A DNA stretch of 49,667 nucleotides, taken from the NCBI GenBank assembly GCA_029882975.1, contig JAOUJW010000041.1:1-49667 (forward strand), in the 5' to 3' direction. This DNA comes from Gammaproteobacteria bacterium (GTDB taxonomy: Bacteria; Pseudomonadota; Gammaproteobacteria; SZUA-152). The position numbers were made by a program, and so were the translations under genes. The notes under the pieces were generated by a model. It saw only the letters and a program-made list of their open reading frames with translations. It was not told where the DNA came from and did no database searches. Of the stretch, positions 1,834 to 32,350 are shown piece after piece; positions within the stretch are counted from its first letter, which is position 1, and every line of letters starts with the position of its first letter.

Positions 1834-3051
1834 ATGATGTCAGAAAGTTTGCTGCCTACTTATCTTGCTGATGTTACACACTATCTGGAAACTGAAGAAC
1901 CACAGTTGTGGGATTGGTTTGCTTCGGCAAAAGTGAAATCCGAGCACGGGGACAATGTCCGTTTACAGCTATTGAAATCCACTTACCGAATTGACCCTCA
2001 AACTCAGTCCCATTTGTATGCTATTGCCCAAGGTGTTGCCGAAAAATTGGGTATCGAACGTCCCATCACTTTATACCAGGGACAACAAATCAATGAGCTG
2101 AATGCTTCGCTTGCCTATATTCCAGATGAGCCACATGTTATTTTCTATGGCCCCTTGTTAAAAACGCTGCAGGATGAAGAAATTGCAGCAGTTCTAGGTC
2201 ATGAGCTGTATCACTTCCAGCTGTGGGAGCGGGATGAGCAGCGTTACTTCACCGCATATCAAATTCTAGAGGCTTTGGCCCAAGATCATCAAGCAGACGC
2301 TTGTTATCTGGAAAGTGTCCGCTTGTTTTCTTTGTTCACTGAGGTGTATTGCGACCGCGGTGCCTACTTGGCGACGGACAATCTGAATGTGGCTGTGAGT
2401 GCCATGGTCAAAATGGTCACCGGTTTGGACGCGGTGAGTGCTGAAGCCTATTTGCAGCAAGCCGATGAGATTTTGGAGAAACACGCCAAAGGCAGCATGC
2501 ATGTTACCCATCCGGAAAGTTTCTTGCGGACCAAAGCGCTGGCGGTGTGGCAAGAGCAGCAAGATGAAGGTCTGGTTATGCGTTTAATTCGAGGGCCGGT
2601 TGCGTTGGGGCAGCTCGACGTGTTGGAAAAAGAAAGCTTGTCGCGGCAGACTCGGGCTTTGATTGAGCTGTTATTGCAATATCCCTGGATGCGAACCGAA
2701 GCCGTTTTGGCTCATGCACGGCAGTTCTTTCACGACTTTCAGACTACCGACAATCAGGAATTCATTAACACGAATCAGACACAACTGCATCAGGCGTTAA
2801 AAGCCGGTCATAAAAGCGTGAAGGATTACTTATGCTATGTGATGTTGGACTTTGCTGCAGTGGATCAGTCCCTGGATGAGGCACCCTTGGCGCATTGTTT
2901 GCTGTTGTCGGAGAGTTTAGGCGTTATGTCGCATTTTTCAGAAATGGTTCGAAAAGAACTGGGTCTTACCAAAAAAGCGCTCGATACGCTAAGCGCCTCT
3001 GCTGCCGATTTGCTGGATAAGTTGGCGGCTTCCGGGGAGACTCATGAGTAA
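1834..3051 (+). CDS. Cytosolic M48-family-like zinc metalloprotease
   Basis: This 405-residue protein has the HExxH zinc motif as HELYH at residues 123-127 (context VLGHELYHF). The likely third ligand is Glu170 in EVYCDRGAY, the spacing and form seen in M48 peptidases. A downstream HPESFLRTKAL segment near residue 226 matches the HP...R motif of that family. Unlike HtpX or Ste24 there is no signal peptide or membrane segment, so it should be soluble and cytoplasmic. The C-terminal half (about 250-405) is helical and unassigned. Two ATGs stand in tandem (1834, 1837) with no strong Shine-Dalgarno. The stop overlaps the start of the helicase gene by 8 bases, so the two are probably translated together and work together. 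The substrate is unknown. Family assignment is firm; a role in defence or DNA processing is inferred from the partner gene. Confidence 0.88.
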   Translation: MMSESLLPTYLADVTHYLETEEPQLWDWFASAKVKSEHGDNVRLQLLKSTYRIDPQTQSHLYAIAQGVAEKLGIERPITLYQGQQINELNASLAYIPDEPHVIFYGPLLKTLQDEEIAAVLGHELYHFQLWERDEQRYFTAYQILEALAQDHQADACYLESVRLFSLFTEVYCDRGAYLATDNLNVAVSAMVKMVTGLDAVSAEAYLQQADEILEKHAKGSMHVTHPESFLRTKALAVWQEQQDEGLVMRLIRGPVALGQLDVLEKESLSRQTRALIELLLQYPWMRTEAVLAHARQFFHDFQTTDNQEFINTNQTQLHQALKAGHKSVKDYLCYVMLDFAAVDQSLDEAPLAHCLLLSESLGVMSHFSEMVRKELGLTKKALDTLSASAADLLDKLAASGETHE

Positions 3052-6000
3052 GTTAGAACATTATCTCAACGAGCAAACCGATCAGCCTTTTCTCACCAGT
3101 GACGCGGTGGTGCATGCCATGCTGCCCTTGATTAAGCAGTTGCTTGAAACCCATGAAGCGGGTCAGGTGGCACCGTTGCAGGGTCTGGGTGAGCTTCATA
3201 TCGAAAATGCCGGAATTTGGTACGCGATCAAGGACGCCAAGCCACCGAGCTATGCCAAGAGCGCGCTGCGACGGGTCGATCCGCCCCACAAAGGCGCGTT
3301 GCGCATAGTGAGCGAATCATCCCATCTCAGTGATCTGAACGAAGGCTCGGAAGTGCATCGAGATCACTCCATTGCCGAACGTACGGATAAAATTACCGCG
3401 CCGGTATATTTGCCTGGCTATATCTGCTGGGAACACCAATTGGAGCATCACGATCCATTGAGTGACATATTTGTCATCGGGCTTATATTGGCTTCCCTGG
3501 CCTGCAATCTGGATTTAAACAATAGTGAAGATTTGCAACTGTTTGTGGAGAATCGGCACAATCTGTTTGCCATAAACTCAGATCTCAATCCGGTTATCGC
3601 TAAGGTGATTGTACAAACAACGGAACTTAGCCGACATGTGCGTCTTGCCGACCTGGAGTCTTTGTACCGTTCGCTAAAAAACTATCGGGATCAGGACAGC
3701 GATATAGATTTTGAACTGCTTAGGGTCGGCGGCTTTGATAAAAAGAAAGTCGACGAAAAACAGCAGATCATTTTAGGGAAACTTCAGGAAAGGCTGTTTG
3801 AAATTTCCAAACGTAATAAGCTGTTACATTTTTCCGCGACACAGAACATGGTGAATCTCACTCAGGCTTCTGTGCCATTGTCCTGCGATGTGCAGAATAT
3901 AAAAGCCGATTCTTTGCTGACTTGGGGTCATTCATTCAAAGAGGATATCCTGAAAGAAAAGCCGACTTTGTTGAATAAGTACGTCAACACGCTTGAGGCG
4001 CTTTACGTGCCGGGCTCCTTGGATCGTTTGCGCACCGAAGCCAATCGAGATCAGCAGGAGTTCGGGTTTGCTCAGTTGCGTTTGGTGTTGTGCTTTTTAT
4101 CGTGGACCAATTTGAAAGAATCCAATAAAGAGCGTTTTTATTCGCCTTTGGTATTGCTCCCGGTAGAGTTGAGCAAGAAAAAAGGAGTGAAAGACAAATA
4201 CTGGCTGCAGTCCCTTAGTACCGAGGCGGAAATCAATCCGGTGTTGCGACACCAATTTGGTGAGCTTTATGATATTCATCTGCCCGACAGCATCGATTTG
4301 AAAAAGACCGATCTGGTGGAATTTCACCAGTGGCTTAGAGCACAAATTGAATCCAGCGATCAGTCCATAACACTGGAGCTTATCGATAAGCCCAAAGTGG
4401 ATATTGTGCATGCCGCCGCCAAACGCCGCCTGGATCATTACAACCGTCGCGCCGGTCTTTCCGGGCGGGGTATTGTCAAATACGAAGATATTGATTACAG
4501 CTACAAGGCGGGCAATTTTCACCCGCTGGGTTTGCGTTTGTTTAATCAAAGAATACGCAAAACCCCCACTTATTTACAGCGCATCGTCGGCGATGTAAGC
4601 AGTGTGGATATGCAATATATGGTGCAGTTACCGGGCGCTTCGGTCGGGTCGGAACAAAAGAAAACCAAAGCCTTTTACTCGCTGCGAGAAAACGATGAAA
4701 CCAACCCTTATCGCTGGCAGTATGATATTTGTAATGTCACTCTGGGGAATTTCAAGTACCGAAAAATGTCTTTGGTAAAAGATTATACCCGTTTATTGGA
4801 ATCGCCTCAGCACAACCAAGCCTTCGAAGCCACGTTTTCACTTAACCCCAGGCCCTTATCTCATCACAGTGAAAAAGAGGCTGACCTTAGTCAACAGTTC
4901 CATATCGTACCCTGCGATCCCACGCAATCCGAGGCCATCGCTCTGGCCAAACGGGGGGAAAGCTATATTATTCAAGGGCCGCCCGGTACCGGTAAGTCTC
5001 AGACCATTACCAATTTGATTGCCGACTTTATTGCCAGAGGTAAAAAAATATTATTCGTTTGCGAAAAGCGTGCAGCCATTGATATTGTTTATTTGCGTTT
5101 AAAACAACAGGGCTTGGGTGCTATTTGCAGCTTGATTCACGACTCGCAAACAGATAAAAAACGTTTCATTCTCGACCTAAGGGCGACATATGAAGGTTTC
5201 CTGGAGTTTGATAGCGCCGGGAACGCAGATGCGCAGGCGCAAAGAAAGGACATTGTCGTTCGTCTCAATGAAAGTTTGGAGCCGCTCAAGCGCTTCGATA
5301 GCCATATGACGCAAGTTTACGATTCGGCGGGTATCCCTTTGAATCAGCTGTTGGAATTGGCGATACGGAACAAGCATCTGTTACCCCAATTCAGTGTGTT
5401 GGAGTTTGAGAGGTTTCCGGAGTATGCCCAATGGGAGATGCATCGCGCCCCATTGACAGAGTTGCAAGCGGCTATAGGCGAAATTCAAGAGGACGGTATT
5501 CTCGCTAAACATCCTCTAGTACTGTTGCACGAGCAATTCATAGATCATGCGGAGCCTATGAATACTGCGGCACAATTGATCGACTCGGCTCTGAGTACAC
5601 TGCAGTCCTTACAAGAGCGTTTAGCCGGCTACAATCAAAAGGCCGGTTTTGCCGCGGCGGATTTTACGACCGTGGCGGAACTGCAGCAACTGCTGGCGTA
5701 TACGCAATCCATAAAACCACTGGCGCAGGCAAAACTGAACTGTTTGTTTGATGATAGCCATGCGCTGACCCAGCGTTTTGAGAGTGCGCGGAAAAAGTAC
5801 CTGAAAAAGCTGGAACAGTATAAGAAGGCTCAAGACAAAACCCAACACTGGCGGAATAAACTGGCACCGGAGGAAACGGAAGCTGCGCTGGCACAGGCAT
5901 CCGGTGTGGGAGGGGTTCTGGCTTTTCTAAGTCCTACTTGGTGGAAGCTGCGAAAAGTATTAAATCTGCATTATGATTTTTCGGCGCATCAAATCAAACC

Positions 6001-8746
6001 GAAGTGGGTTCAGGTGCTGACTTGGCTGCTGGACGAGCACAAAGCCTTGGTCGTGTTGGAGGATTTTGTCGATGACATGAAAATCGACTTCGGTTTTGAC
6101 TGTGAGTTGGAGGAACTTAATACCACACTGGAAGCGGTTAGCCGTGATTTACCCGACTACACGCAAAGCTTACAGCGGCTACACGAAAATTTGGTCACTC
6201 ATGCGGACGCTCGCGATATTATCGCCGGATATGCCTCACTGAAACCTTCATTCGTGGAATTTGGCGAAACGCTGTCGCAGTTAGTGCAAGCTTATGAAGA
6301 AATCCCGTATTCAGAGCTGAAATTGATTTTGGCCGGAATGAAAGACGCCTTGCATCAGGTGCCGGAATTTCTACTGTGCTTAAAAGCATTGGCAGGTTTG
6401 CCGTTGAGTTTGTCCGCTTTGTTTCGAACCCATAAACTCACCAGCTCACAAATCGAAACGGCCATTGCTCACAAAACCGTAACGGCCTTGATTAAAACCC
6501 AACCGGCGCTTAACCGGATTGTGGGGACAGTGAAACAGCAGCATGTTAAAACTTTGGGCAAATATCACGGTGCTTTATACAAGCAAAACGCCCATGCGAT
6601 TTTGGACCAAGTCCGCAGTCATTTTTTGCATAATCTACATGTGAGCAATTTAGCGGCAGCGGAACTCTCGTCGGAGCAGAAAGAATTTAAGAAACGTTAT
6701 GCGCGCGGGCGACGGGAGCTTGAGCACGAGTTTGGAAAGTCCATTCGTTACAAATCCATTCGCGATATGGTATCCAACGCTTCCGGTGAAGTGATCAATG
6801 ATCTAAAACGGGTTTGGCTCATGAGCCCCTTAAGCGTTTCCGACACTTTGCCCTTAAGCAGTGACGATTTTGATGTGGTTATTTTCGACGAAGCCAGCCA
6901 GATAACCTTGGAAGAGGCCATCCCTTCAATCTTTCGTGCCAATCAATCGGTGGTGGTGGGCGATCAAATGCAAATGCCGCCCACCAATTTTTTCTCAGCC
7001 AAAAGTGGCGGAGGTGAGGAAGAGGTCTTGGAGTTTTACGAAGACGATGAACTGGTCGAATACGATCTGAACAGCAACAGTTTTCTTACCCATGTGGCCA
7101 ATAATCTCGAATCCCGCCGTTTGGGCTGGCATTATCGCAGCCGTTCGGAAGCTTTGATCAGTTTTTCCAATTGGGCGTTTTACCAGGGGTCTTTGTTGAC
7201 GGTCCCCGATGTGGTGGCCAATTCGGATAGTAAGGCAGCCATTGTTGTGTTTGACTCGCAACAGGGCGATCAAAACCATAACCGGATTCTCGACCGAGGC
7301 GTAAGCTTTCATCGTATTGAAAAAGGAATTTATGAGAATAGACGCAATCGGCGTGAGGCGGACTATATCGCCAGACTGGTGCGCGGCCTGTTAACATCGC
7401 AAGCGCATAAAAGCATTGGTATTGTGGCGTTTTCCGAAGCGCAACAGACGGAGATTGAGCGCGCGCTGAATGCGCTGGCTGAACACGATCGCGATTTTCG
7501 CAATTTGTTGGATGCGGAGTTCGAGCGCGAGGAAGACGGTGAATTCGTCGGGCTATTGGTAAAGAACCTGGAAAATATCCAAGGCGATGAGCGCGACATT
7601 ATTATTTTGAGTGTTTGTTATGGCCATAACCCGCAAGGGAAAATGCGTATGAACTTTGGCCCGATTAATCAAAAAGGCGGCGAGAAACGGTTGAATGTGG
7701 CTTTTTCGCGTGCCAAGCAACACATGGTGGTCATCAGTTCCATTCAACACGCCGATATCACCAATGACTATAACGAAGGCGCCAATGCCTTAAAATCCTA
7801 TTTGCGTTACACCGAGGCGGTGTCGGTGGGGGATGAGGAATCGGCCAATCGGGTGCTGTTCGGTCTCAGCTATAGCGACCTGGGCAGCGGCAGTGAAAAC
7901 GCAGCAACGGACGGCGCGGTCAATCCTTGTTTAATCCAACTTCAGTCAGCCTTGGAGCAGCAAGGTTGGGTGGTGGACGCCGGTGTCGGTCATTCGCGCT
8001 TTAAATGCGACATGGCATTGCGTCGGCCTGAAGAAACTCACTATCGTCTGGGGATTTTCATAGACGGCGATCACTTCTATCAACAACAAGACGTCATCGA
8101 GCGAGACTTATTAAAACCGCAGTTACTACGTAATTTCGGTTGGCGCATTGTACATGTGCTTCTCAAAGACTGGTACGACGATCCTGAATCTGTTTTGGCT
8201 CAGATTGATAAAGCCTTAACGCAACCCGAGGCGGAGGAAGCCGTAGAGGATACGATTGAATTAGGACCGGTTCAACCGGAGTCGACGAATACTGTCGCAC
8301 CAGTCTACGCGGAGCCCGTGCAAGAGTTTATGCAAGAGCCCGTACAAAAGCCAATAGGAGACAATGCAGCGGTTCCTGAGGAACTGAAGGACAAGAGCGA
8401 GCCGCTAAAATCGCTGGACGACTCGGTGAAAACACCAAGTACCACAGCGCCCCAGCCAAGCTCATCCCCGTCGACCCGGTCGACTCCAACGCCGACCCCG
8501 TCTACGCTTGATCCTCCGGAAGTGGTGTTGGGCAAAACAGTCTATTTGGAATTTGTGTCAGCAAGTTCTGCTAAATTTTGGTCGATCACGGTCAGTGACA
8601 AACAACATGAAGTGTGTTTTGGTCGCATTGGCACCAAAGGTCAAGGTAAAGTGCAACAATTTGAAACTACCACCGCGGCATTGGGCAGTGCAACTAAATT
8701 GCTGGCCCAGAAACTGAAGAAAGGGTATGTTGTGGTCGGGCAGTAG
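3044..8746 (+). CDS. Kinase-like/DUF4011/SF1 helicase/Vsr-like nuclease/WGR fusion protein
   Basis: This 1,900-residue protein has several parts. Residues ~45-215 resemble the C-lobe of a protein kinase without catalytic residues: LHIEN near 52, PGYICWEHQ at 124-132 in place of the APE segment, DPLSDIFVIG at 137-146 as subdomain IX, and Arg197 near the end. DUF4011 begins near 240 with LQERLFEISKRNKLLHF. The SF1 helicase has Walker A QGPPGTGKSQT (~643-653), a coiled-coil-rich insertion of about 620 residues, Walker B VVIFDEASQ (~1277-1285), VVVGDQMQMPP (~1303), WHYRSRSEALI (~1362), NIQGDERDIIILS (~1507) and LNVAFSRAK (~1549). Residues ~1628-1720 match the MTES_1575/Vsr-like nuclease fold (CDMAL, GIFIDGDHF, ERDLLKPQLLRNFGWRI). 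A Pro/Thr/Ser-rich linker leads to a WGR domain (~1830-1900; FGRIGTKGQGK). DUF4011-helicase-Vsr proteins are known anti-phage candidates (the Hhe type). The kinase-like and WGR additions and the protease partner are distinctive. No signal peptide. Confidence 0.88.
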   Translation: MSKLEHYLNEQTDQPFLTSDAVVHAMLPLIKQLLETHEAGQVAPLQGLGELHIENAGIWYAIKDAKPPSYAKSALRRVDPPHKGALRIVSESSHLSDLNEGSEVHRDHSIAERTDKITAPVYLPGYICWEHQLEHHDPLSDIFVIGLILASLACNLDLNNSEDLQLFVENRHNLFAINSDLNPVIAKVIVQTTELSRHVRLADLESLYRSLKNYRDQDSDIDFELLRVGGFDKKKVDEKQQIILGKLQERLFEISKRNKLLHFSATQNMVNLTQASVPLSCDVQNIKADSLLTWGHSFKEDILKEKPTLLNKYVNTLEALYVPGSLDRLRTEANRDQQEFGFAQLRLVLCFLSWTNLKESNKERFYSPLVLLPVELSKKKGVKDKYWLQSLSTEAEINPVLRHQFGELYDIHLPDSIDLKKTDLVEFHQWLRAQIESSDQSITLELIDKPKVDIVHAAAKRRLDHYNRRAGLSGRGIVKYEDIDYSYKAGNFHPLGLRLFNQRIRKTPTYLQRIVGDVSSVDMQYMVQLPGASVGSEQKKTKAFYSLRENDETNPYRWQYDICNVTLGNFKYRKMSLVKDYTRLLESPQHNQAFEATFSLNPRPLSHHSEKEADLSQQFHIVPCDPTQSEAIALAKRGESYIIQGPPGTGKSQTITNLIADFIARGKKILFVCEKRAAIDIVYLRLKQQGLGAICSLIHDSQTDKKRFILDLRATYEGFLEFDSAGNADAQAQRKDIVVRLNESLEPLKRFDSHMTQVYDSAGIPLNQLLELAIRNKHLLPQFSVLEFERFPEYAQWEMHRAPLTELQAAIGEIQEDGILAKHPLVLLHEQFIDHAEPMNTAAQLIDSALSTLQSLQERLAGYNQKAGFAAADFTTVAELQQLLAYTQSIKPLAQAKLNCLFDDSHALTQRFESARKKYLKKLEQYKKAQDKTQHWRNKLAPEETEAALAQASGVGGVLAFLSPTWWKLRKVLNLHYDFSAHQIKPKWVQVLTWLLDEHKALVVLEDFVDDMKIDFGFDCELEELNTTLEAVSRDLPDYTQSLQRLHENLVTHADARDIIAGYASLKPSFVEFGETLSQLVQAYEEIPYSELKLILAGMKDALHQVPEFLLCLKALAGLPLSLSALFRTHKLTSSQIETAIAHKTVTALIKTQPALNRIVGTVKQQHVKTLGKYHGALYKQNAHAILDQVRSHFLHNLHVSNLAAAELSSEQKEFKKRYARGRRELEHEFGKSIRYKSIRDMVSNASGEVINDLKRVWLMSPLSVSDTLPLSSDDFDVVIFDEASQITLEEAIPSIFRANQSVVVGDQMQMPPTNFFSAKSGGGEEEVLEFYEDDELVEYDLNSNSFLTHVANNLESRRLGWHYRSRSEALISFSNWAFYQGSLLTVPDVVANSDSKAAIVVFDSQQGDQNHNRILDRGVSFHRIEKGIYENRRNRREADYIARLVRGLLTSQAHKSIGIVAFSEAQQTEIERALNALAEHDRDFRNLLDAEFEREEDGEFVGLLVKNLENIQGDERDIIILSVCYGHNPQGKMRMNFGPINQKGGEKRLNVAFSRAKQHMVVISSIQHADITNDYNEGANALKSYLRYTEAVSVGDEESANRVLFGLSYSDLGSGSENAATDGAVNPCLIQLQSALEQQGWVVDAGVGHSRFKCDMALRRPEETHYRLGIFIDGDHFYQQQDVIERDLLKPQLLRNFGWRIVHVLLKDWYDDPESVLAQIDKALTQPEAEEAVEDTIELGPVQPESTNTVAPVYAEPVQEFMQEPVQKPIGDNAAVPEELKDKSEPLKSLDDSVKTPSTTAPQPSSSPSTRSTPTPTPSTLDPPEVVLGKTVYLEFVSASSAKFWSITVSDKQHEVCFGRIGTKGQGKVQQFETTTAALGSATKLLAQKLKKGYVVVGQ

Positions 8747-15460: not shown

Positions 15461-16741
15461 TCAAAAATTGTATTTAAACGCCAATTCCGTGAACAAGGCG
15501 TTGTCGGCGTTAGGGAAAGCCTGGCCTGGGTAGAAGTATCCCACGGTGTAGGTAACTTTTGTGTCCTTAGTGGGGCGACCGCCGACAATAATATCCAAGG
15601 CGCTACCCAGATCGGTGCTGGTCCCATTGGGAATTTCGTCGATTTCTGAATTGCGAATATTGCTGCTGGCGACGTCCTGCGTGTAGGTATGATGGACTAC
15701 ATCAAAGGAGAAACTTCTCTGATATCGGAATCCCAAGCCCAAAGTGGTGACTTTGACGTTACTTAACTCCATGTCGACCATTTCTCCATAGATGTTATAG
15801 CGCTCAATTCCACCGTTTTTGGAGTCATTGTCTTGATAGCCGGTTTGGCGAAAGTTACCGTCGACATTGTCCGTAAGGTTGTTATCACCGCTGCCGTAAG
15901 CGTAGCCCATAATCAATCGGGGGCGCGCCGGTAATGACTTGAAGGTATAGTAAAAACCGAGGTCATAGCCAAAGCCATCAATTGATTGACCGGCTTCATC
16001 GCCTCCGACTAAACCGGTTTCCAGCCAGTAGTCCATATCGCCTAATTCACCTTGGGCTTGAAGACCAAAAAACTGTGCATTGCGTTGCCCTGCGGTTTTA
16101 TCATCCTGAATCAAATAGTAGGCCATTAATTGGTTGTCTTTGATGTATTCGTAGCGGCCATATAGCAAGTAGTTTCTAATGCCTTCATTGGCGCCGGTAT
16201 TCATGGTGTCTTTGTGATTCTTTTCAAAAGCGAAAAATTCCACAGCGCCATCGGGGATCATAAGTTCGAATCTGGCGCCGTCCAATTCTTCATCGAAAAG
16301 CCATTCGCGTTCGTCTTTGGTGCGCATTCGGCCCAGTTTGATATTCATGGTGTTGAACACATTGTCCAGCTGTAAGTAAGCATTCACAATAGAAAGCTCG
16401 GTTTTGTCGACTTTTTTTTGCGCTTCGTCATCGTACATATATCTGGCGAAGTCGGCATTTAAGTAGGCAGAGATATTTTCTTTTGGCGAGTAGCGCAGCG
16501 CCAGCGATACCAGAGGTCGGTTTCGTGTTTCATCTTCTGCTTTGGTGTCGTCAAGATTAAAATTGCCTTGTTTTCTTGACTCAAATTCTACCCGTCCACC
16601 GTAGGCCAGCTCTTCGGAGATTTGGTTGTTGGTGCTGGGTGGTTTGTCTGATCCGGCCCATGCCAAAGGTATTGTTGCCATCAAAACCAAGCAGACACTG
16701 CTAGTAGCGAATCTTAGTTTCTTTTTTCCGGTACACATCAC
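15461..16741 (-). CDS. AlgE-like (alginate export family) outer-membrane beta-barrel
   Basis: The 426-residue protein begins with a signal peptide (SVCLVLMATIPLAWA, cleavage about residue 29) and ends in FKYNF, with a C-terminal Phe typical of outer-membrane barrels. The body is full of alternating beta strands and resembles the alginate-export porin family in its layout: an early GGRVEFESRKQGNF strand, NIKLGRMRTKDEREWLFDEE (split here as NIKLGRMRTKD and EREWLFDEE), and VGYFYPGQAFP near the end. Such barrels let an anionic polysaccharide cross the outer membrane. It is the last gene of the minus-strand glycan operon and starts 17 bases after the kinase gene. The start is GTG 16741 or ATG 16738; an AGAGGA ribosome site serves both. 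The glycan identity is unknown. Confidence 0.8.
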   Translation of the reverse strand: MMCTGKKKLRFATSSVCLVLMATIPLAWAGSDKPPSTNNQISEELAYGGRVEFESRKQGNFNLDDTKAEDETRNRPLVSLALRYSPKENISAYLNADFARYMYDDEAQKKVDKTELSIVNAYLQLDNVFNTMNIKLGRMRTKDEREWLFDEELDGARFELMIPDGAVEFFAFEKNHKDTMNTGANEGIRNYLLYGRYEYIKDNQLMAYYLIQDDKTAGQRNAQFFGLQAQGELGDMDYWLETGLVGGDEAGQSIDGFGYDLGFYYTFKSLPARPRLIMGYAYGSGDNNLTDNVDGNFRQTGYQDNDSKNGGIERYNIYGEMVDMELSNVKVTTLGLGFRYQRSFSFDVVHHTYTQDVASSNIRNSEIDEIPNGTSTDLGSALDIIVGGRPTKDTKVTYTVGYFYPGQAFPNADNALFTELAFKYNF

Positions 16742-16758
16742 CGTATTTCCTCTAATAA

Positions 16759-19134
16759 TTACAGGGTTCTACCTGTGTTGATAATCAATCTGCCGCAATT
16801 TGTGTTTGCAGATATTCCAAGTCGTTGTTCTGTGTGCATCAACAGCTGTTCGGTAAAGGCTCTCCGTTCCGGCAACAGCGTGCTTATTTGTACTAAGCGG
16901 GCTAAGCTTAAAGATACATAAGCGTCTATTGTTTCTTTTGGTAGGGGCGATAACTGCACATACGCTCTTTCAAAGGCTAAGCAGGCGCTTGAAAGCGCAT
17001 TGATGTCACCGCGAATTCTCAAAGCATATTCCATTAGGTGGGCGATATAGTTACCCAAGTCCAAGGCCGGATCTCCCTGACTGCAAAGATCCAGGTCAAT
17101 AAGGGCAAGTTGTTTTTTCGCGCTCACTAAAACTTGATCAAAATAAAAATCCCGATGAATACATCGTGGTATGGAATCCGGAATGTTTTGAGCAAGTTCC
17201 TGACAGGCGCAAAACAGGCGGTTAATACGTTCCGCCCAGTGCGGAAAATCTTTACATAAGGTGTCCATGCGGCTGCGAAGTATTGCCAGTTCATCGCTAA
17301 TGTTGTGAGTTTTTCTTGGTGTCTGGCCGCAATGATGCAGTTTGTGAATCAATGTGGCGATTCGACTCTGGGTGTGGTTGTCATTTGAGTCGAGTGATTC
17401 ACCGACGGATGAGGCTTCGACCTTGTGGTACAGCCACATATTCAAATCGGGTATCAGTCCGATGGGTTGAGGTACCATAAGGCCATCGTCACTGCTTTCG
17501 CCGAATCCGTTTTCCCACAGTGCGGAATTGAGCTTATAGGTTTTTCGGTCTGCGCCCTTGGCGCGGACCTTGCCCATAATGCATAGGTGTACCGGGTCGC
17601 CGCGATCGTCAGTTAAAGTAATCTGATATTGCAATAAACAACGGCGCCCCGGTTTGTGTCTGATGATGTGGGTTTGCGCTACCCGCAACGGTGCATTTTG
17701 TGAATGGGGTCTAAGTAACGGTTCCAACTTGGTTTCCATATACCTGCCATTCAACGCTAGATTTATACAGGGTAAAGCGGCGTCATTCAGCAGAACAATT
17801 TCTTTAGGGGTGTTGGTTAGAACGTTGTATATGCCGGATATGTATCGTTGCAAACAGTGTTCTGTCGCTGCAAGAATTTTTTGGGTTAATACGTCCCAGT
17901 TCGGTTGACGATGCCGAAATGGCTCCGGTAGCAATCGGTACAAGCCTAATGCGGTATATAGGTCAATACGGGAGCGTACCTGGTGCGAGGGTTGGTAACC
18001 TTCAATGAACGTTTTGCAAATAGCGTCGGCAAGCGTTCGCGAAAGCTTCGCTGCGATAACCTGGCGCTCAATATGGGCAATGAAGTTACCCAGGTCCCTG
18101 GCAGGATCGCCAAGGCCGGCGCGATCAAAGTCGACGAAGCTCACCGTGTGGTTTTCCCGAACTAACACTTGGTCGGAATAAAAATCACCGTGTATAGGTG
18201 TGGTTATGGGTTCCAGCTTCTTAATGTAATGGGATAATGACGCGCCTATCTTGTCAATCAGGTTCTGCAATTGAGGACAAATTGCAATTACCGACTCAAA
18301 GGTTTGGCGTATATCCACCAAATCGTCGAATGGCTCCAAACGGTTTGTGTTGATCTTCTGTCGGTGTAGCTCGGCAAGGGCCTGTCCCGTTTCTTTTACA
18401 GAGGTCAAAGCGGCATTGCCTTTCTCAATGAGCTTGGTGAGCTCCGTGGAGCCCAGCCATTCAAACGCCAGTATTTGGTTGTCGTCGTCCCAGGCCAGAA
18501 TCTCCGGTATGTGTAAGCGTTCTGTGCTGGAAAAACGCTGTGCTGAGGCTTTAGCTTGCTCATAGCCCTGTGGTGCGTACCACTTTAGAACAGCAAAAGC
18601 TCGCTGGTTTATCTCTACCCGAACTACGTGGCGTCTTTCCGGCTTATAGCGTAGTTGTACAAACTGCAGTTGTTCTTTTGATACGCAAAGATCCGGAAAC
18701 AACTTCTCTAACAGGCGTAAACGTCGTGAGGCTTTGTCAAACTTACCTATTCTTTTCAGTTTTTTATCCAGTGGAAAAAAATAGACGGCTACAGCTTCCT
18801 TTTCCAGGTTAATCATTGGCTGCGCGTAGCTATGGGAGGTGTCACTGCGCAGTTTCCAGTCGTCTCTATTTAATTTTTCTTGTTTTTCAGAAGCATCATC
18901 GCCGAATGCACGGGCGTAGACATTCAGTACCCGTCGTGACGTGTGTACATGATAGGCGACCAGGCAATTGGTTCCGGGTTTGTAGCGAATGTATATGGGG
19001 TCTACGCGGATTACCGTTTCCGCAGGCAGGTTGGCTTGTATAACCGTAGTTAATTGTTCCGTGTCCAGCAGCAAACGCAAACCCGGTAGTTTGTGATCGC
19101 GATCGATAAAGGCTTGGTCTGGTTTCGATAACAT
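16759..19134 (-). CDS. Two-domain APH/choline kinase-like phosphotransferase
   Basis: The 791-residue protein contains two phosphotransferase domains of the aminoglycoside/choline kinase type in tandem. The first has the catalytic loop HGDFYSDQVLV (~311) and the metal-binding segment FVDFDRAGLGDPARDLGNFIAH. The second repeats this as HRDFYFDQVLV (~656) and LIDLDLCSQGDPALDLGNYIAH. Each half also starts with a similar YKPG or HKPGRRCL(L/V) strand, so the gene arose by duplication and fusion. Both halves keep the catalytic Asp and the metal-binding Asp, so both could be active. In a glycosyltransferase operon the likely acceptor is a sugar or a lipid/polyol headgroup, not an antibiotic. It sits 21 bases after the ABC exporter. 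It is cytoplasmic, with no membrane segments. Confidence 0.82.
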   Translation of the reverse strand: MLSKPDQAFIDRDHKLPGLRLLLDTEQLTTVIQANLPAETVIRVDPIYIRYKPGTNCLVAYHVHTSRRVLNVYARAFGDDASEKQEKLNRDDWKLRSDTSHSYAQPMINLEKEAVAVYFFPLDKKLKRIGKFDKASRRLRLLEKLFPDLCVSKEQLQFVQLRYKPERRHVVRVEINQRAFAVLKWYAPQGYEQAKASAQRFSSTERLHIPEILAWDDDNQILAFEWLGSTELTKLIEKGNAALTSVKETGQALAELHRQKINTNRLEPFDDLVDIRQTFESVIAICPQLQNLIDKIGASLSHYIKKLEPITTPIHGDFYSDQVLVRENHTVSFVDFDRAGLGDPARDLGNFIAHIERQVIAAKLSRTLADAICKTFIEGYQPSHQVRSRIDLYTALGLYRLLPEPFRHRQPNWDVLTQKILAATEHCLQRYISGIYNVLTNTPKEIVLLNDAALPCINLALNGRYMETKLEPLLRPHSQNAPLRVAQTHIIRHKPGRRCLLQYQITLTDDRGDPVHLCIMGKVRAKGADRKTYKLNSALWENGFGESSDDGLMVPQPIGLIPDLNMWLYHKVEASSVGESLDSNDNHTQSRIATLIHKLHHCGQTPRKTHNISDELAILRSRMDTLCKDFPHWAERINRLFCACQELAQNIPDSIPRCIHRDFYFDQVLVSAKKQLALIDLDLCSQGDPALDLGNYIAHLMEYALRIRGDINALSSACLAFERAYVQLSPLPKETIDAYVSLSLARLVQISTLLPERRAFTEQLLMHTEQRLGISANTNCGRLIINTGRTL

Positions 19135-19155
19135 TGTCCGGTTCCGTTTAAAGTT

Positions 19156-20964
19156 TCAGGACAAGTTTTGTAAACGATAGAGCGAGGCATAGCTGCCACT
19201 GTTGGCAACGAGCTCTTCGTGCGAACCCAGTTCGTGCACTTCGCCGTCTTTCAGATGCAGAATGATGTCTGCCCGCGATGCGATTTTAAGATCGTGGGTA
19301 ACTAAGAACGTGGTTTTGTTTTCGGCGAGTTTTTCCAGCGCAGTAATGACCTCGCGTTCGCTCTCTTTGTCCAAGCCGGTGGTTGGTTCATCCAATATCA
19401 GTATCCGGTTCTCACAAATCGCTGCGCGGGCTATGGCAATACGTTGCCTTTGTCCGTTAGATAAAGTGACGCCGCGTTCACCGACGTAGGTGTCATAGCC
19501 GTCGGGCATTGCCGTGATAAAGTCGTGCGCATTGGCCAGGCGTGCCGCCGCCTGAATTTGTTCCTCGGAGGCATCTTGTGCAGCAAAAGCAATGTTTTCG
19601 CGAATACTACCGGCAAAAAGCAGCGTATCTTGCAGTACTACCCCAATCTGAGAGCGTATGGAGTCAATGGTATAGGATTGTATGTCTACACCATCGATAA
19701 GAATTCGACCTGCTACAGGATTGTAAAGGCGTAACAGTAAGCCGGTTAAGGTCGTTTTTCCCGAGCCTGACGGTGAAATTAAAGCGACACTTTGACCGGC
19801 TCGGATCGAAAATTGGATATTTTTGAGCACCGGTTTTTCCGGTTCGTAGAAGAAAGCCACTTTATCGAAGACGATGTCGCCATGCAGGGCCGGGGCGGGG
19901 CGAGCGTCATCTCGGTCACGAACCTCGGGTTGCAGATCCAGTATTTCCACAACACGCTCACCCGCCGCCGCCGCCTTAGCTAATCGTCCGGTGAACTTGG
20001 CGAAATTGCGCAGCGGTTTGAATGCTGTTTTCAAATAGGCCAAAAATACAATCAAGTCACCGGGGGTGAGTTGCTGTTTCATGACAAGGGATACACCGAA
20101 CCAAAGTACCAGGGCAGTGGCAATGGCTACGAGTACGTCCACATATCGTTCTAATCCTGCGGCGAGCTTTTTAGCTTTAACACCTTCGCGCAGATTCTTT
20201 TTCGCGCTGCTGGAAAAGGAGTCGTTGAAGGTTTGTTCCAATGACAAAGCCTGAACGGTTTTAATTGCGCTAAAGGACTCGGCGACGGTTGCGGCCAGCG
20301 CGCTTTCGGTTTTACGTTGTTTGCGGGAAACTTCACGAATGCTGCGGCTGCGGCGCAAAGTCGCAAACCAAAACAATGGTACTACGGCGATGGAAATCAG
20401 TGCCAGTTGCCAGTGCAGCCAAAACATGACGGCGATAATACCAATCAACACCAATACATTACCCAGCAATGGCAAAGCCGCAGTGACGGTGACTTCCTGT
20501 AACAACCCCACATCTCCGGTCATGCGTACAATTAAATCGCCGGTACGTGATTTGGTATGAAACGATAGTGATAGTGCTTGTAGATGTTTGTACAATTTGC
20601 GTCGCACTTCCGTGAGGACTCGGTTGCCTACAAGAGCAAATCCCACGGTGCTGCCGTAGGCGGCCAGTGCGCGTAATCCGGCAAAGATCACTACCGCAAT
20701 GGCGGCAACTATCAGCAGATTTTCCGGACTCATGGATTGGAACAATCCCGATTCAGGTGGTGTAGCGTCGGGCGCTTGTACGGGAATAATTCTGTCGAAC
20801 ACAAATTTCAAAGGCCAGGGTTCCAGCAAACGAAACAGCACTTCTCCCAGTAAGGCGAGAAAGGAAAGCGATATGAGCCCTAAATGTTGGCGGATTTCCG
20901 GTTGAAACCGGCGCAGTATGCGCAGCAAGCCAGGGTTAAGCTGCTTTTTCGAAGAGCCGGCCAT
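19156..20964 (-). CDS. ABC exporter, fused permease-ATPase (MsbA-like)
   Basis: The 602-residue half-transporter has six transmembrane helices (~25-320) followed by a nucleotide-binding domain. That domain has Walker A SPSGSGKTTL (~394-403), a signature sequence LSNGQRQR (~499; Asn in place of the commoner Gly of LSGGQ), Walker B ILILDEPTTGLD (~520) and a His switch in LVTHDLK. It should dimerise and export a lipid-linked or amphipathic substrate across the inner membrane. Its start codon abuts the stop of the glycosyltransferase before it, and the kinase gene follows 21 bases on. Most likely it flips or exports the glycan precursor made by the three glycosyltransferases. Confidence 0.92.
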   Translation of the reverse strand: MAGSSKKQLNPGLLRILRRFQPEIRQHLGLISLSFLALLGEVLFRLLEPWPLKFVFDRIIPVQAPDATPPESGLFQSMSPENLLIVAAIAVVIFAGLRALAAYGSTVGFALVGNRVLTEVRRKLYKHLQALSLSFHTKSRTGDLIVRMTGDVGLLQEVTVTAALPLLGNVLVLIGIIAVMFWLHWQLALISIAVVPLFWFATLRRSRSIREVSRKQRKTESALAATVAESFSAIKTVQALSLEQTFNDSFSSSAKKNLREGVKAKKLAAGLERYVDVLVAIATALVLWFGVSLVMKQQLTPGDLIVFLAYLKTAFKPLRNFAKFTGRLAKAAAAGERVVEILDLQPEVRDRDDARPAPALHGDIVFDKVAFFYEPEKPVLKNIQFSIRAGQSVALISPSGSGKTTLTGLLLRLYNPVAGRILIDGVDIQSYTIDSIRSQIGVVLQDTLLFAGSIRENIAFAAQDASEEQIQAAARLANAHDFITAMPDGYDTYVGERGVTLSNGQRQRIAIARAAICENRILILDEPTTGLDKESEREVITALEKLAENKTTFLVTHDLKIASRADIILHLKDGEVHELGSHEELVANSGSYASLYRLQNLS

Positions 20965-22152
20965 TTAAGCGGTGCCTCTTTTAAGCCCGCTTTTATCTTC
21001 CATGCGTTGAGCAATTTGTATGATTCTATCGGCTACCTTGTCCCAGGTATAGTTTTGTATTACGGTTTTACGGGCTTCGGCTCCCAAGGTTTGGCGCAGT
21101 TTTTCGTCGTTATACAGTCGCAACAACGATTGTAACAGTGAGTCCACGTTACCGGGTGTACACAGCAATCCGTTTTTGCCGGGGATGATCAGTTGTTTGA
21201 GTTGACCGATTTCGCTGGCGATAACGGCCAGGCCCGCGGCCATGTATTCGTAGACTTTTAGTGGCGAAAAATAAAATTCACTTAGGTTCGGGTATGGTGC
21301 CACGGCTATGTCCATTGAGGCCAGTTTCGCAGGTATTTCCTGCGGAGCGACTGCGCCGATCAGGTCGACGGCGGCCTCAATGTTGTATTTCGTGCACAGT
21401 TCCTGTATTTCGGATTTTTGTGGCCCGTCACCTACCACCATCAAGCGGGTGTTTGGTTGCTGCCGATGAAATGCTGCAAATGCTTCGATGAGGCCGGGGA
21501 GGCCATGCCAGGGTTTTAATGTTCCTACAAAGCCGACGACAAACGGCGCTTGTGGTTTTTTGTCAGTCCCTGCGTTGGGGAACCGGTCAGCGTTGATGCC
21601 GTTGGGAATGACATGAAGCTTGCTTAAGGTGGTACAACCTTCTTTGTTAATAATATAGTTTGCAATCTCTTGAGACACGCAAATAATCGCCGCTGCAGTT
21701 TGCAATAGCGTTGAAGTGATGGTTTCAGCCTGCGCTTTATGAATCAAATCACGGTGCTTGGCTTGTTCTTCAACCAGGGGTGCATTGACTTCGAGGATGC
21801 CGGGGATGTTGTTTTGTGCGGCAAAATCCATTCCGGCATAACTCCACAAGGAGTAGCGTTCGTAGATCAAGTCATAGTTATTCAATGCTTCCAGCAGGTT
21901 GAACAAATCCTGATTTAATGCCATGGCCGCTTGTTCCCGCGCAGCAGAATCGGTTTTAGGCGGTAGCGGTAGTTGCTGCAACTTAACCTGTTCCAAGCCG
22001 GGTGGCGGAGAACCGCCGCTGCGAACGGTAAACAAATCCACTGTCGCCCCCAGCTTGATGAAAGCGCGAATGACTTCCTGTACATGTACGGAACAACCCT
22101 TGTTCCCAAAAACGGGGATGCCCGGGTCCATGCATAGGTAGGCTATGCGCAT
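20965..22152 (-). CDS. GT4-family glycosyltransferase
   Basis: The 395-residue protein has the GT-B layout of family 4: an N-terminal glycine-rich loop (VFGNKGCSVHVQE), a central linker with FVVGFVGTLKPWHGL, and the E-x7-E nucleotide-sugar motif at KVYEYMAAGLAVIASEIGQL. It transfers a sugar from a nucleotide donor and should be cytoplasmic, possibly membrane-associated. Its start ATG overlaps the stop of the preceding glycosyltransferase by one base, and its stop abuts the ABC exporter start, so the three are translationally coupled. Donor and acceptor are not predictable. Confidence 0.9.
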   Translation of the reverse strand: MRIAYLCMDPGIPVFGNKGCSVHVQEVIRAFIKLGATVDLFTVRSGGSPPPGLEQVKLQQLPLPPKTDSAAREQAAMALNQDLFNLLEALNNYDLIYERYSLWSYAGMDFAAQNNIPGILEVNAPLVEEQAKHRDLIHKAQAETITSTLLQTAAAIICVSQEIANYIINKEGCTTLSKLHVIPNGINADRFPNAGTDKKPQAPFVVGFVGTLKPWHGLPGLIEAFAAFHRQQPNTRLMVVGDGPQKSEIQELCTKYNIEAAVDLIGAVAPQEIPAKLASMDIAVAPYPNLSEFYFSPLKVYEYMAAGLAVIASEIGQLKQLIIPGKNGLLCTPGNVDSLLQSLLRLYNDEKLRQTLGAEARKTVIQNYTWDKVADRIIQIAQRMEDKSGLKRGTA

Positions 22153-23408
22153 TAGGAAATTCCTATAGCGTTGAGCAAACTCTCTTTGTTGACAGCGGAT
22201 TTGCTAACGGCAGCACTAAAGACATTGCGGATGAGAACGGCGTTTTTGTTGACGTCAAATAAGTGCTCAATAAGCTCTCGGGCCTGCGTTGCCAATTCTT
22301 GGCGGAGTTCGCTGTCATCCAACAGCCGTTGCAGCGCCTGGGCCAGAGCTTCCGGTGAATTTTGCGGGACAATTAGGCCGGTCTTTTCATGTTTGATGGC
22401 TTCGGGTATTCCGGTGACATCGGTAGAAATCGCCACGGTCCCCAAGGCCATGGATTCAAGCAAAACAGTCGGTAAGCCATCCTGATTTCCGTCCGAACCG
22501 ACGACACAAGGTGCGACAAGTATGGTTGCACTTTGTACCAGTTCAATAATTTCCTGTTGTGGGCGAGGGCCGGGTAGAAAGACGCGATCGGATAAGCTCA
22601 GTTCATCCACTTTTCGTTTTAGTTCGTCGGCTAAGGGGCCGGCACCAATAATACTGCAGCGAAAATCTGTGCCTGCATTGGCCAGTATCCCGCAAGCTTG
22701 CACTAAGTCCATGAACCCCTTTTTCTCAATCAGGCGGCCCACTGCAATGATATGCGTGGATGATTTGTTTGCGTTGCTGTAGGGGAAGCGGTTGAGATCC
22801 AAACCGTTATATATGCGCACCACATTGGAGCTGTCTTGAGGGAACTGCTCTTGTAAGAATTTCACATTGAAGTCGCTTACCGTAATTACGCGTGTGGCCT
22901 CTTTGATCTTGGTTTTTAAGTCTTCAGACTCCACGCTTTCATGAAAAATGTCTTTGGCATGTGCCGTAAGGCTATAGCTGATATCGGCGAAGTAGGCAGC
23001 TAAGCGCGCCACGCTCGCAGCGGATGTGGCAAAGTGTGCATGTAGATGTTCTATTCCCGTATTAACGATTTGGGTTGCCAGGGTGATGGCCTGATAAATA
23101 TTTTTATGGTTTTCTCCCTTGGCGTAAGACAAACGTTCCCAGATTTGCGGTATGGTCTGCGATGCTGTTTCGATTTCCTTCCAGAAGTCTTCCAGTCGAA
23201 TGGAACCGCTGGGTAAATAGGTGACCGGTGCGCGTACCTTGGCAATAATGTCTTGAAAGTGAGTGTCCACCGGCGGGCGCAAAGCGAAGATAGAAATATC
23301 CAGGCCGGCTGCTTCATGCGCCAAAATCTCGCTGACCACAAAGGTCTCGGAATATCTGGGGTAGCGTTTTACCACATATCCAACCCGGTTTACGCTGTTG
23401 CCATTCAT
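22152..23408 (-). CDS. GT4-family glycosyltransferase (WcaL/AmsK-like)
   Basis: The 418-residue protein resembles the colanic acid/amylovoran-type GT4 enzymes. The N-terminus YVVKRYPRYSETFVVSEI is the characteristic opening of that group. HLHAHFATSAASVA and LTAHAKDIF follow, and the donor-site motif is LPTVLLESMALGTVAIST. The acceptor side of the GT-B fold is N-terminal. The gene overlaps its upstream neighbour by 4 bases (ATGA) and the downstream one by 1 base. The family points to extracellular polysaccharide synthesis in the cytoplasm. Confidence 0.9.
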   Translation of the reverse strand: MNGNSVNRVGYVVKRYPRYSETFVVSEILAHEAAGLDISIFALRPPVDTHFQDIIAKVRAPVTYLPSGSIRLEDFWKEIETASQTIPQIWERLSYAKGENHKNIYQAITLATQIVNTGIEHLHAHFATSAASVARLAAYFADISYSLTAHAKDIFHESVESEDLKTKIKEATRVITVSDFNVKFLQEQFPQDSSNVVRIYNGLDLNRFPYSNANKSSTHIIAVGRLIEKKGFMDLVQACGILANAGTDFRCSIIGAGPLADELKRKVDELSLSDRVFLPGPRPQQEIIELVQSATILVAPCVVGSDGNQDGLPTVLLESMALGTVAISTDVTGIPEAIKHEKTGLIVPQNSPEALAQALQRLLDDSELRQELATQARELIEHLFDVNKNAVLIRNVFSAAVSKSAVNKESLLNAIGIS

Positions 23409-24730
23409 GGCGGGGACACCTGCTGATTTCGTGCAACTTTAGGTTTTTCTTGTTTTAGCAATGACAACAACAAGCTTTGAATTTGCTTCAAACCGTCCAT
23501 GTCTATATCGTTGTCCGGGGTGTCCTCCGCCCTAATGGCGTCATGAATCCATGTGCCAAGGGACTCAGGGTGAAGGTCATCAGGCGTTACGTGGTCTACC
23601 ACTCCGAGCTTGGATAGTTCCTCGGCACGGATAAGTTGCTCTTGGCGTGGTTTGACTCTGGGGACTATGAGTGCACGTTTTTTAAATGACAAGATTTCGG
23701 AAACACTGTTGTATCCACCCATGGAGACAATGGCATTGGCATCTTTGAGTAATAGGGTTGGTTCCGATACGAAATCGATGACTTGCATTTGTTTCGATCC
23801 GGCAGCCAGTTCCAATAATTTACACCGGTCTTGCCTGGACATGTGCGGTCCGGTCAGCAGGATGCCATGTAAACCATCGTCAAGCTTTACCTTTAGGAAA
23901 GCTTCGGCGAGCTGTAAGCCATCCTGACCACCGCCCACCATGCACAAAACATAAGGGGTTTTGTGTAGATCCGCAATGAGTTGACGGGTTGCCAGTCCTT
24001 GTTCTTCCGCAAAGGCCATACGGGTGCGATGATCAAAATATCCGGTAAATCGAACCTTGGCCGCCAGTTCAGGTGACATGGAATAAGCGCGCGTCAAATC
24101 ATAAACATTACGATCACCGTAGACCCACAGGGCATCATAGTAGTGGGTGGCATAGCGTACAAAATCCTCCTTTAACCATTCTTGGTTCACGACGAGAGGC
24201 TCGTCTTTTATGTCTCGCATACCCAATACCAGCCTGGTAGGGCTGCCTTGCAGATGTTCCAGGGTTCGGTCGAGCTCGCCGCAGGCGCCACGGGCTACGT
24301 TGTCCACGATCATAAAGTCCGGTTCAAAGGCTTGCACTGCGGACAAAATGATTTGCGAACGTAACTCAATAATTTTGTTCAGTTCCAGACTTAAGTGGCG
24401 GGAACGATACACGCCGTCATTGTTTTTATACAAAGAAGGCAGGATTAAACGATCCGTGTCCGCTGGTACAACGAATTCCGCGGCTTCTTTGGCCCCGGAA
24501 ATAAGTAGAATGTCGTAAGGTACGGTAGAAAACTGCAATGCTTGGGCGATGAGAATATTGCGGCGTATATGCCCCAATCCCATGGTGTCATGAGAATAAA
24601 ATACGATTTTGATTTTCTCATTGGAATTGCGATTGACGAGCGCTGTGTTTTGGGTAACGTCATCGGCGTTATTTGATCGCTGATTATCGTGAACGGATGT
24701 TAATTTGAGATTTTGATTTGAACTGTTCAT
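23405..24730 (-). CDS. MurG/GT28-like glycosyltransferase, first gene of the glycan operon
   Basis: The 441-residue protein starts with about 38 polar residues, then a GT-B fold of the MurG/GT28 type. The N-terminal motif is SHDTMGLGHIRRNILIAQAL. The C-terminal donor half contains VLCMVGGGQDG, ILLTGPHMS and SMGGYNSVSEILSFKKRALIV (split as SMGGYNSVSEI and LSFKKRALIV), with an E-Q-L acceptor stretch PRQEQLIRAEEL. It is the first gene in a run of six closely packed minus-strand genes and overlaps the next by 4 bases. The upstream 305-base gap holds CTTAAG boxes. The ribosome site is weak. The sugar and acceptor are unknown. Confidence 0.87.
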   Translation of the reverse strand: MNSSNQNLKLTSVHDNQRSNNADDVTQNTALVNRNSNEKIKIVFYSHDTMGLGHIRRNILIAQALQFSTVPYDILLISGAKEAAEFVVPADTDRLILPSLYKNNDGVYRSRHLSLELNKIIELRSQIILSAVQAFEPDFMIVDNVARGACGELDRTLEHLQGSPTRLVLGMRDIKDEPLVVNQEWLKEDFVRYATHYYDALWVYGDRNVYDLTRAYSMSPELAAKVRFTGYFDHRTRMAFAEEQGLATRQLIADLHKTPYVLCMVGGGQDGLQLAEAFLKVKLDDGLHGILLTGPHMSRQDRCKLLELAAGSKQMQVIDFVSEPTLLLKDANAIVSMGGYNSVSEILSFKKRALIVPRVKPRQEQLIRAEELSKLGVVDHVTPDDLHPESLGTWIHDAIRAEDTPDNDIDMDGLKQIQSLLLSLLKQEKPKVARNQQVSPP

Positions 24731-32290: not shown

Positions 32291-32350
32291 TGCTCAAGTT
32301 TGAGTCGGTTTGTTCTGAACAAGAAAATAGATAAGAAGGTAGCGGAAATA

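Follow-up and report, generated by a model that had tools for sequence, protein, structure and literature searches.

Does a metalloprotease gene that overlaps the gene for a very large helicase form a unit with it and, if so, what might such a unit do? The question is raised by a gene pair in the window (the whole stretch of 49,667 nucleotides analysed here, from a gammaproteobacterium), which the original prediction put forward as a candidate undescribed defence or DNA-processing module. Gene 1 (1834..3051, + strand), an open reading frame (ORF) with an ATG start, encodes an M48-type zinc metalloprotease of 405 residues, as assigned by Pfam, an AlphaFold2 model and a structure match. Gene 2 (3044..8746, + strand), again an ORF with an ATG start, encodes a 1,900-residue protein in which a pseudokinase-like lobe is followed by DUF4011, an SF1 helicase, an MTES_1575 domain and a WGR domain. 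Seven ORFs of the window were scanned against Pfam, and both the predicted M48-like protease and its 8-base overlap with the 1,900-residue protein are borne out by the ORFs and Pfam matches. The overlap, exactly 8 bases by ORF coordinates (3044..3051, + strand), suggests translational coupling; in other pair loci, with ORF starts called mechanically, a 4-base overlap is seen in 10 of 26. The DUF4011 of gene 2 is the only copy detected in the host genome. Elsewhere, the window holds a low-complexity ORF built of a short repeated LLAEG-like peptide (34-369, + strand), six genes for an alginate-export porin, an APH-type kinase-like protein, an ABC exporter and three glycosyltransferases that together look like an exopolysaccharide cluster (15461-24730, - strand), and an ORF with an autotransporter-type beta-barrel followed by a 3,298-residue protein with fn3, PKD and Big domains (30692-42196, + strand).

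The two M48 criteria, an HExxH motif and a downstream Glu ligand, are both found in gene 1. The protein matches Pfam Peptidase_M48 (PF01435) over residues 55-237 with 42.8 bits (cut-off 20.3), its zinc-binding motif HELYH lies at residues 123-127 (2200..2214, + strand), and E170 (and D174) downstream of this motif is the probable third zinc ligand. Across the 28 proteases of the window and 27 further loci, H123, E124 and H127 are retained in 27, and E170 and D174 in all 28. The AlphaFold2 model of gene 1 has a pLDDT of 92.4, and its residues 14-244 align with BepA (Z 9.7) and ZMPSTE24 (Z 9.3) in VIA-align. On the model, the helical C-terminal domain (2629..2964, + strand; residues 266-377) is tentatively TerB-like: 98 of its residues align with PG1108 (2h5n), which we take to be a TerB-like structure, at Z 8.1, a low value for a helical bundle. 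At the matching place in fused relatives Pfam TerB stays below threshold (21.5 bits against a cut-off of 24.4 in the fusion L033), and it is absent among the 25 Pfam families listed for 23 proteases. The structure alignments took part of the sequence set (24 rows in A4 and 23 rows in A5). In a Pirellulaceae pair (L062:4440-5699), RQLGQ stands in place of HExxH with E170 and D174 intact, and this protease is, by its sequence, probably dead. M48 proteins of about 400-500 residues also occur stand-alone, with no DUF4011 helicase in the adjoining sequence (L034-L037 and L039-L044). Their alignment with gene 1 extends at least across the M48 domain, and L035, L036 and L042 seemingly have a gene order in common, as judged from ORF lengths only.

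DUF4011, an SF1 helicase, a Vsr/MTES_1575 fold and a WGR domain had all been read from gene 2 in the original prediction, and each scores above its Pfam cut-off. DUF4011 occupies residues 250-403 (3791..4252, + strand; 53.5 bits, cut-off 22.2). The UPF1/SMUBP2-like SF1 motor spans approximately residues 628-1566 (4925..7741, + strand) and matches Pfam AAA_11, AAA_12 and AAA_19, with 67.5 bits for AAA_11 and 73.1 bits for AAA_12 (cut-off 27); its best PDB relatives by sequence include SMUBP-2, at the top, SEN1 and UPF1. The Walker A motif within the motor, GPPGTGKS (4976-4999, + strand), and the DEAS motif are identical in 30 of 30 proteins of the clade described below. The MTES_1575/Vsr-fold domain lies at residues 1634-1725 (7943..8218, + strand; 66.9 bits, cut-off 38.2), and a linker rich in proline, serine and threonine connects it to the WGR domain at residues 1833-1896 (8540..8731, + strand; 50.5 bits, cut-off 22). 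The WGR domain, presumably one that binds nucleic acid or DNA ends, is found by BLAST in 21 of 30 clade loci (L050-L078 and L098) and is hence not universal.

The N-terminus of gene 2, earlier described as kinase-like, proves to be so in fold. An AlphaFold2 model of residues 1-260, built on a 24-sequence alignment, has a mean pLDDT of 90.4 and a pTM of 0.84, and the lobe (approximately residues 1-235; 3044..3748, + strand) aligns with PknB (1o6y) over 155 residues with Z 15.6 and an rmsd of 3.0 Å (VIA-align). The 50 PDB rows listed by Foldseek are all kinases or pseudokinases, the best at E 1.2e-3 and none at or below 0.001. The presumed catalytic loop, read by eye, is H-x-x-G-x-V-A-P-L in the window, and at the place of the HRD Asp each of the 29 rows not gapped at that position carries L, F or I. 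The lobe is therefore probably a kinase C-lobe that lacks catalytic residues, that is, a pseudokinase. It also marks a clade: over the loci scanned (L032-L048, L050-L129, L133 and L134), a profile of the lobe matches 32, of which 30 have a separate protease and 2 do not, and all of these belong to the pair clade. The profile has no match in two proteins in which M48, DUF4011 and helicase are fused. A match outside the clade (L145, E 9.5e-12) is a 530-residue kinase-like ORF with no helicase or M48 gene nearby.

We examined how widely the pair is kept with a helicase-alignment scan of 84,980 species genomes, from which the best 80 loci were taken. Among the matches listed, the closest helicase clade has 30 decidable loci (L050-L078 and L098), and 27 of them have an M48 gene directly upstream, which is the adjacency that the original prediction proposed to look for in other genomes. 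No M48 gene stands beside the distant DUF4011 helicases in the matches listed (0 of 49 loci, flanks up to 8 kb). The three protease-less clade loci (L070, L075 and L078) are all from Chitinophaga. Chance adjacency was considered and rejected: of the loci bearing the lobe 27 of 29 have M48 upstream, and of the 49 distant loci none does (Fisher p 6e-19, which is overstated because the loci are related; 3 of the 49 distant loci have less than 1.3 kb upstream). The count of 29 omits L079, in which the contig begins inside the gene, and L078, a clade member with neither lobe nor protease. By host name, the pair occurs in Planctomycetota, Verrucomicrobiota, Bacteroidota, Pseudomonadota and Myxococcota, together with one doubtful member of the Bacillota. 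This last locus, L069 (Oceanobacillus), groups with L064 (Pseudophaeobacter) and may be a contamination.

The pair is also sparse. Near-full-length lobe matches were found in 3 of 398, 2 of 369 and 2 of 390 genomes in three samples; these come from five distinct genomes, that of the window included, all with M48 upstream, in one of them as a contig-edge fragment. Four weak lobe matches (E 9e-10 to 9e-6) were excluded from membership, one of which (G029) has neither M48 nor helicase within 10 kb.

The trees of the two genes agree closely. For 27 pairs the Mantel r is 0.84, a value reached in none of 2,000 permutations, and 16 of 24 splits are common to both trees, whereas shuffled labels give a mean of 0.23 shared splits. 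Genes 1 and 2 thus coevolve and travel together, a pattern that does not of itself prove physical contact. The pair clade receives a support of 0.954 in a tree built from 83 helicases and contains 32 members, 29 with the protease and 3 without. Two near-coincidences in this tree, of L133 with L055 (Pseudomonas sp. K2I15) and of L134 with L077, may be duplicate species, and the position of L133 beside L055 points to Gammaproteobacteria as the probable class of the host. In the closest relative (L032:4688-10352, genome G002) a frameshift, either real or an artefact of a draft assembly, divides the helicase into two overlapping ORFs. Adjacency, coevolution and the fusion lineage described below uphold the protease as a dedicated partner, and genes 1 and 2 are a genuine unit.

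The Vsr-fold domain of this unit has a degraded nuclease site. At three positions that we take, from the fold and from conservation, to be the catalytic site, the window has L, D and F, compared with E...D...ExD in relatives. The E-D-E set is complete in 0 of 31 clade members (28 of them with the protease) but in 26 of 46 distant relatives among the matches listed (Fisher p 4e-8, a value that flatters the contrast because there are only about 2 independent events, not 33). The 31 rows are the window, L050-L078 and L098, and include the protease-less L070, L075 and L078. Position by position, 34 of the 46 distant relatives retain the helix 1 E, 40 the D and 33 the ECDG-motif E; for the 31 clade members the counts are 0, 21 and 0. 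Among the 46 protease-less relatives, too, 20 lack one or more of the three residues. The 'nuclease Asp' singled out by the original prediction is D1656; it is retained in 21 of 31 clade members but is not accompanied by the two Glu residues present in many relatives. D1674 is retained in 30 of 31, and the clade's Vsr-fold domain also conserves the GW-motif Trp. In the three Chitinophaga loci both nuclease Glu residues and D1656 are missing, and L078 also lacks the pseudokinase lobe. From these substitutions the Vsr-fold domain of gene 2 is predicted to be catalytically dead; a non-canonical nuclease site involving D1656 and D1674 is possible.

A second lineage combines the same parts differently. 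In two genomes (loci L033 and L038) M48, the TerB-like region, DUF4011, helicase and MTES are encoded as a single ORF, of 1,953 and 1,896 residues. In the helicase tree the two fusions form a clade of their own (support 1.0); eight Bacillota-type helicases join them (0.977), and this group falls outside the pair clade. A search of 20 genomes from the order of G241 gave no fusion besides its own, and G121 belongs to an order with one genome. Both fusions lack both Glu residues and have the D alone left, and their eight sister helicases all keep E-D-E; the loss of the nuclease in the fusions thus coincides with the protease. This suggests that the association of a protease in place of a nuclease arose in a second, separate lineage by fusion.

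We analysed the surroundings of the pair for signs of a defence context. For the 100 nearest neighbours (two per side), no PADLOC family matches more than 2 proteins among the 25 of 44 families listed, and for 126 farther neighbours seven families match with at most 2 members each. The farther set comprises proteins of 150-1000 residues, with longer and shorter proteins and locus L098 left out; matches were counted at E up to 1e-10, per family and not per protein. Some of the matches are ordinary Lhr- or UvrD-like helicases, and 8 of 10 large neighbours scanned singly had no match. The neighbours of distant DUF4011 relatives (one per side, 90 of 91 proteins, one having been dropped as part of a helicase gene) give JetB/JetC, Type I REase, ZorG and PDC-S06 matches, again with at most 2 members each among the 25 of 76 families listed. 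Match counts are alike in the two sets (at most 2 per family), and it is the kind of family that differs. The expectation that the pair would lie near defence genes found no support among these near and farther neighbours, and placement in a defence island is unsupported by neighbour families and PADLOC matches. As background, the available passages on Pseudomonas aeruginosa describe a DUF4011 gene as a core flank of a defence hotspot (PMC10250203).

The pair does not sit in a conserved core neighbourhood either: the 266 neighbour ORFs of 26 loci yield just 4 shared families, each confined to 2 or 3 loci, and no conserved third gene. A substrate of the protease is therefore probably encoded elsewhere or in a phage. 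Searches of 72,556 plasmid records (E up to 1e-5) and 50,697 phage records (E up to 1e-3) gave no M48 homologue. The helicase matches 382 plasmid records, none over 80% of the query, and in the 30 of these 382 that were listed the match begins no earlier than residue 510. Two scans of viral contigs with single-protein queries, which reach close relatives only, gave no relatives, and an empty-site comparison gave no DNA match for the downstream flank in 20 family relatives.

How does the pair compare with known systems? PADLOC places gene 2 nearest PDC-S37 (E 1.5e-205; 683.8 bits, best stretch profile 186-1363 of 1550), above Hhe (E 9.4e-96), and no PADLOC model matches gene 1. Hhe (NCBIfam NF042953, PADLOC PDLC02194) presumably resembles gene 2 in joining DUF4011, an SF1 motor and a Vsr-fold domain in one giant protein; however, gene 2 scores 468 bits against the Hhe cut-off of 2000, and the window has in addition a protease partner, a pseudokinase-like lobe, a WGR domain and a degraded nuclease site. 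ProA (NCBIfam NF058533) and PDC-S37 are the best-scoring families for approximately residues 525-1766 of gene 2, but ProA reaches only 679 bits of a cut-off of 1500 (best stretch profile 582-1731 of 1903), and the best stretches of both omit the N-terminal lobe. The origin of the name ProA was not found in the open-access literature searched. Mokosh type I has a helicase-kinase architecture. Its SF1 helicase is homologous to part of gene 2 (MkoA E 1.5e-33); the available passages give Mokosh (MkoA/MkoB) a PLD domain where a protease is found here (PMC10952713). None of the seven window ORFs scanned with Pfam has a PLD domain, and the partner is M48. HamAB, of Hachiman, has an SF2-type helicase. 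As far as the accessible passages go, it follows a similar two-protein logic in which the helicase senses DNA integrity and restrains an effector, although that effector is a nuclease (PMC12278908).

A parallel in logic comes from nuclease-protease Hachiman, in which HamMAB likewise combines a sensor helicase and a protease with loss of an old nuclease active site (PMC12799240). There the HamA nuclease motif is absent from virtually all protease-HamA fusions, and mutating either the protease or the helicase abolishes immunity. HamMAB differs in having a trypsin-like protease fused to HamA that activates a pro-nuclease, HamM, whereas the window pair has a zinc M48 enzyme and no recurring third gene. 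An M48 metallopeptidase gene also ends a tested phage-defence island, RRDM of E. coli E2348/69; there it accompanies a Type I R-M system, DarTG and a regulator, and neither the available passages nor a term search of that paper mentions DUF4011 (PMC12255303). In the open-access literature, outside which most subscription papers lie, we found no description of an M48 and DUF4011-helicase pair, of the pseudokinase lobe or of the repeated nuclease loss. This agrees with the original prediction, to which a dedicated protease partner was not a known part of the description of DUF4011-helicase-Vsr proteins (Hhe). DUF4011 anti-phage proteins and protease-bearing helicase systems are both already known.

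These observations are consistent with a model in which genes 1 and 2 encode one complex. Gene 2 would be its sensor and scaffold: its UPF1-like SF1 motor, driven by ATP, together with DUF4011, the predicted dead Vsr-fold domain and, in many members, WGR, would engage abnormal DNA or RNA, for example free ends, forks or intermediates of phage replication. Because the lobe profile has no match in the fusions, we infer that the lobe serves the separately encoded protease, which it would most likely dock or restrain; once gene 2 engages nucleic acid and hydrolyses ATP, the protease would be released or brought into position and may then cut a host or phage protein and stop the infected or damaged cell, possibly as an anti-phage response. 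The output of an ancestral DUF4011-helicase-nuclease would thus have been swapped from nuclease to protease. We regard a sensor-helicase complex whose output has moved from a nuclease to an M48 protease as slightly the more probable case. The proposal that the helicase senses and the protease is licensed gains from the degraded nuclease site in both protease-holding lineages and from the protease-fused Hachiman precedent (PMC12799240), and loses from neighbours that are not visibly defence-rich. The swap itself is further weakened by the lack of a conserved third gene as substrate, unlike HamM in Hachiman, by the pair L062 that has lost HExxH, and by the protease-less Chitinophaga, which also lack the nuclease residues and so would have neither output.

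With such ordinary neighbours, a defence role for the pair stands at about even odds, and two rivals are serious. One is genome maintenance, in which the helicase would meet protein-blocked or broken DNA and the M48 enzyme would degrade the blocking protein, a form of the DNA-protein crosslink repair that SPRTN and Wss1 perform in eukaryotes. A WGR domain beside a UPF1/DNA2/SMUBP2-like motor would suit this role, as would neighbours that resemble ordinary chromosome and not defence islands, and a SprT-like Pfam family matches 17 of 23 proteases at E <= 1 (best 6.4e-7). However, SprT similarity is common to zincins in general, the sparse occurrence in the three genome samples is unusual for core repair, and the Vsr-fold domain descends from relatives that resemble active nucleases; we consider this reading unlikely.

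The other serious rival makes the protease a regulator whose target, the helicase or a repressor, would be trimmed, activated or turned over, leaving the damage to the helicase or to a non-canonical nuclease site. The conserved D1674 and GW-motif Trp would fit, the MTES-WGR linker could be cut, and three clade members persist without the protease; against it, all 31 clade members have lost both Glu residues but keep invariant Walker motifs, and the two Glu are lost again in the second lineage, in which the protease is fused. It seems to us rather unlikely. That gene 2 is instead a plain helicase-nuclease defence protein of the Hhe/PDC-S37 type, with the M48 gene a mere passenger, draws on the PADLOC matches, but the protease is conserved, coevolving and fused in one lineage, the nuclease residues are absent and the NCBIfam cut-offs for ProA and Hhe are missed. 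We disfavour this reading as very improbable.

In summary, the pair is conserved and coevolves, its protease and motor motifs are kept, its nuclease site is degraded, and a separate lineage has fused protease and helicase. The pair thus suggests a protein-cutting rather than a DNA-cutting sensing machine, possibly anti-phage. The fuller proposal is of a widespread machine, so far undescribed, with an immune or anti-mobile-element role: a DUF4011/UPF1-like helicase of helicase-nuclease ancestry would sense invading nucleic acid and license a lobe-held M48 protease to cut a protein of the cell or the phage, protease having replaced nuclease twice, once as an operon and once by fusion. This proposal falls somewhat short of probable. 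The PADLOC models recognise the helicase only, best as the candidate PDC-S37, and not its M48 partner. If the swap of output is true, the pattern of protease gained and nuclease lost seen in Hachiman would extend to the DUF4011 helicase superfamily and to another class of protease, and the pair would offer a concrete, cheap test of the rewiring of bacterial sensor helicases from DNA cutting to protein cutting.
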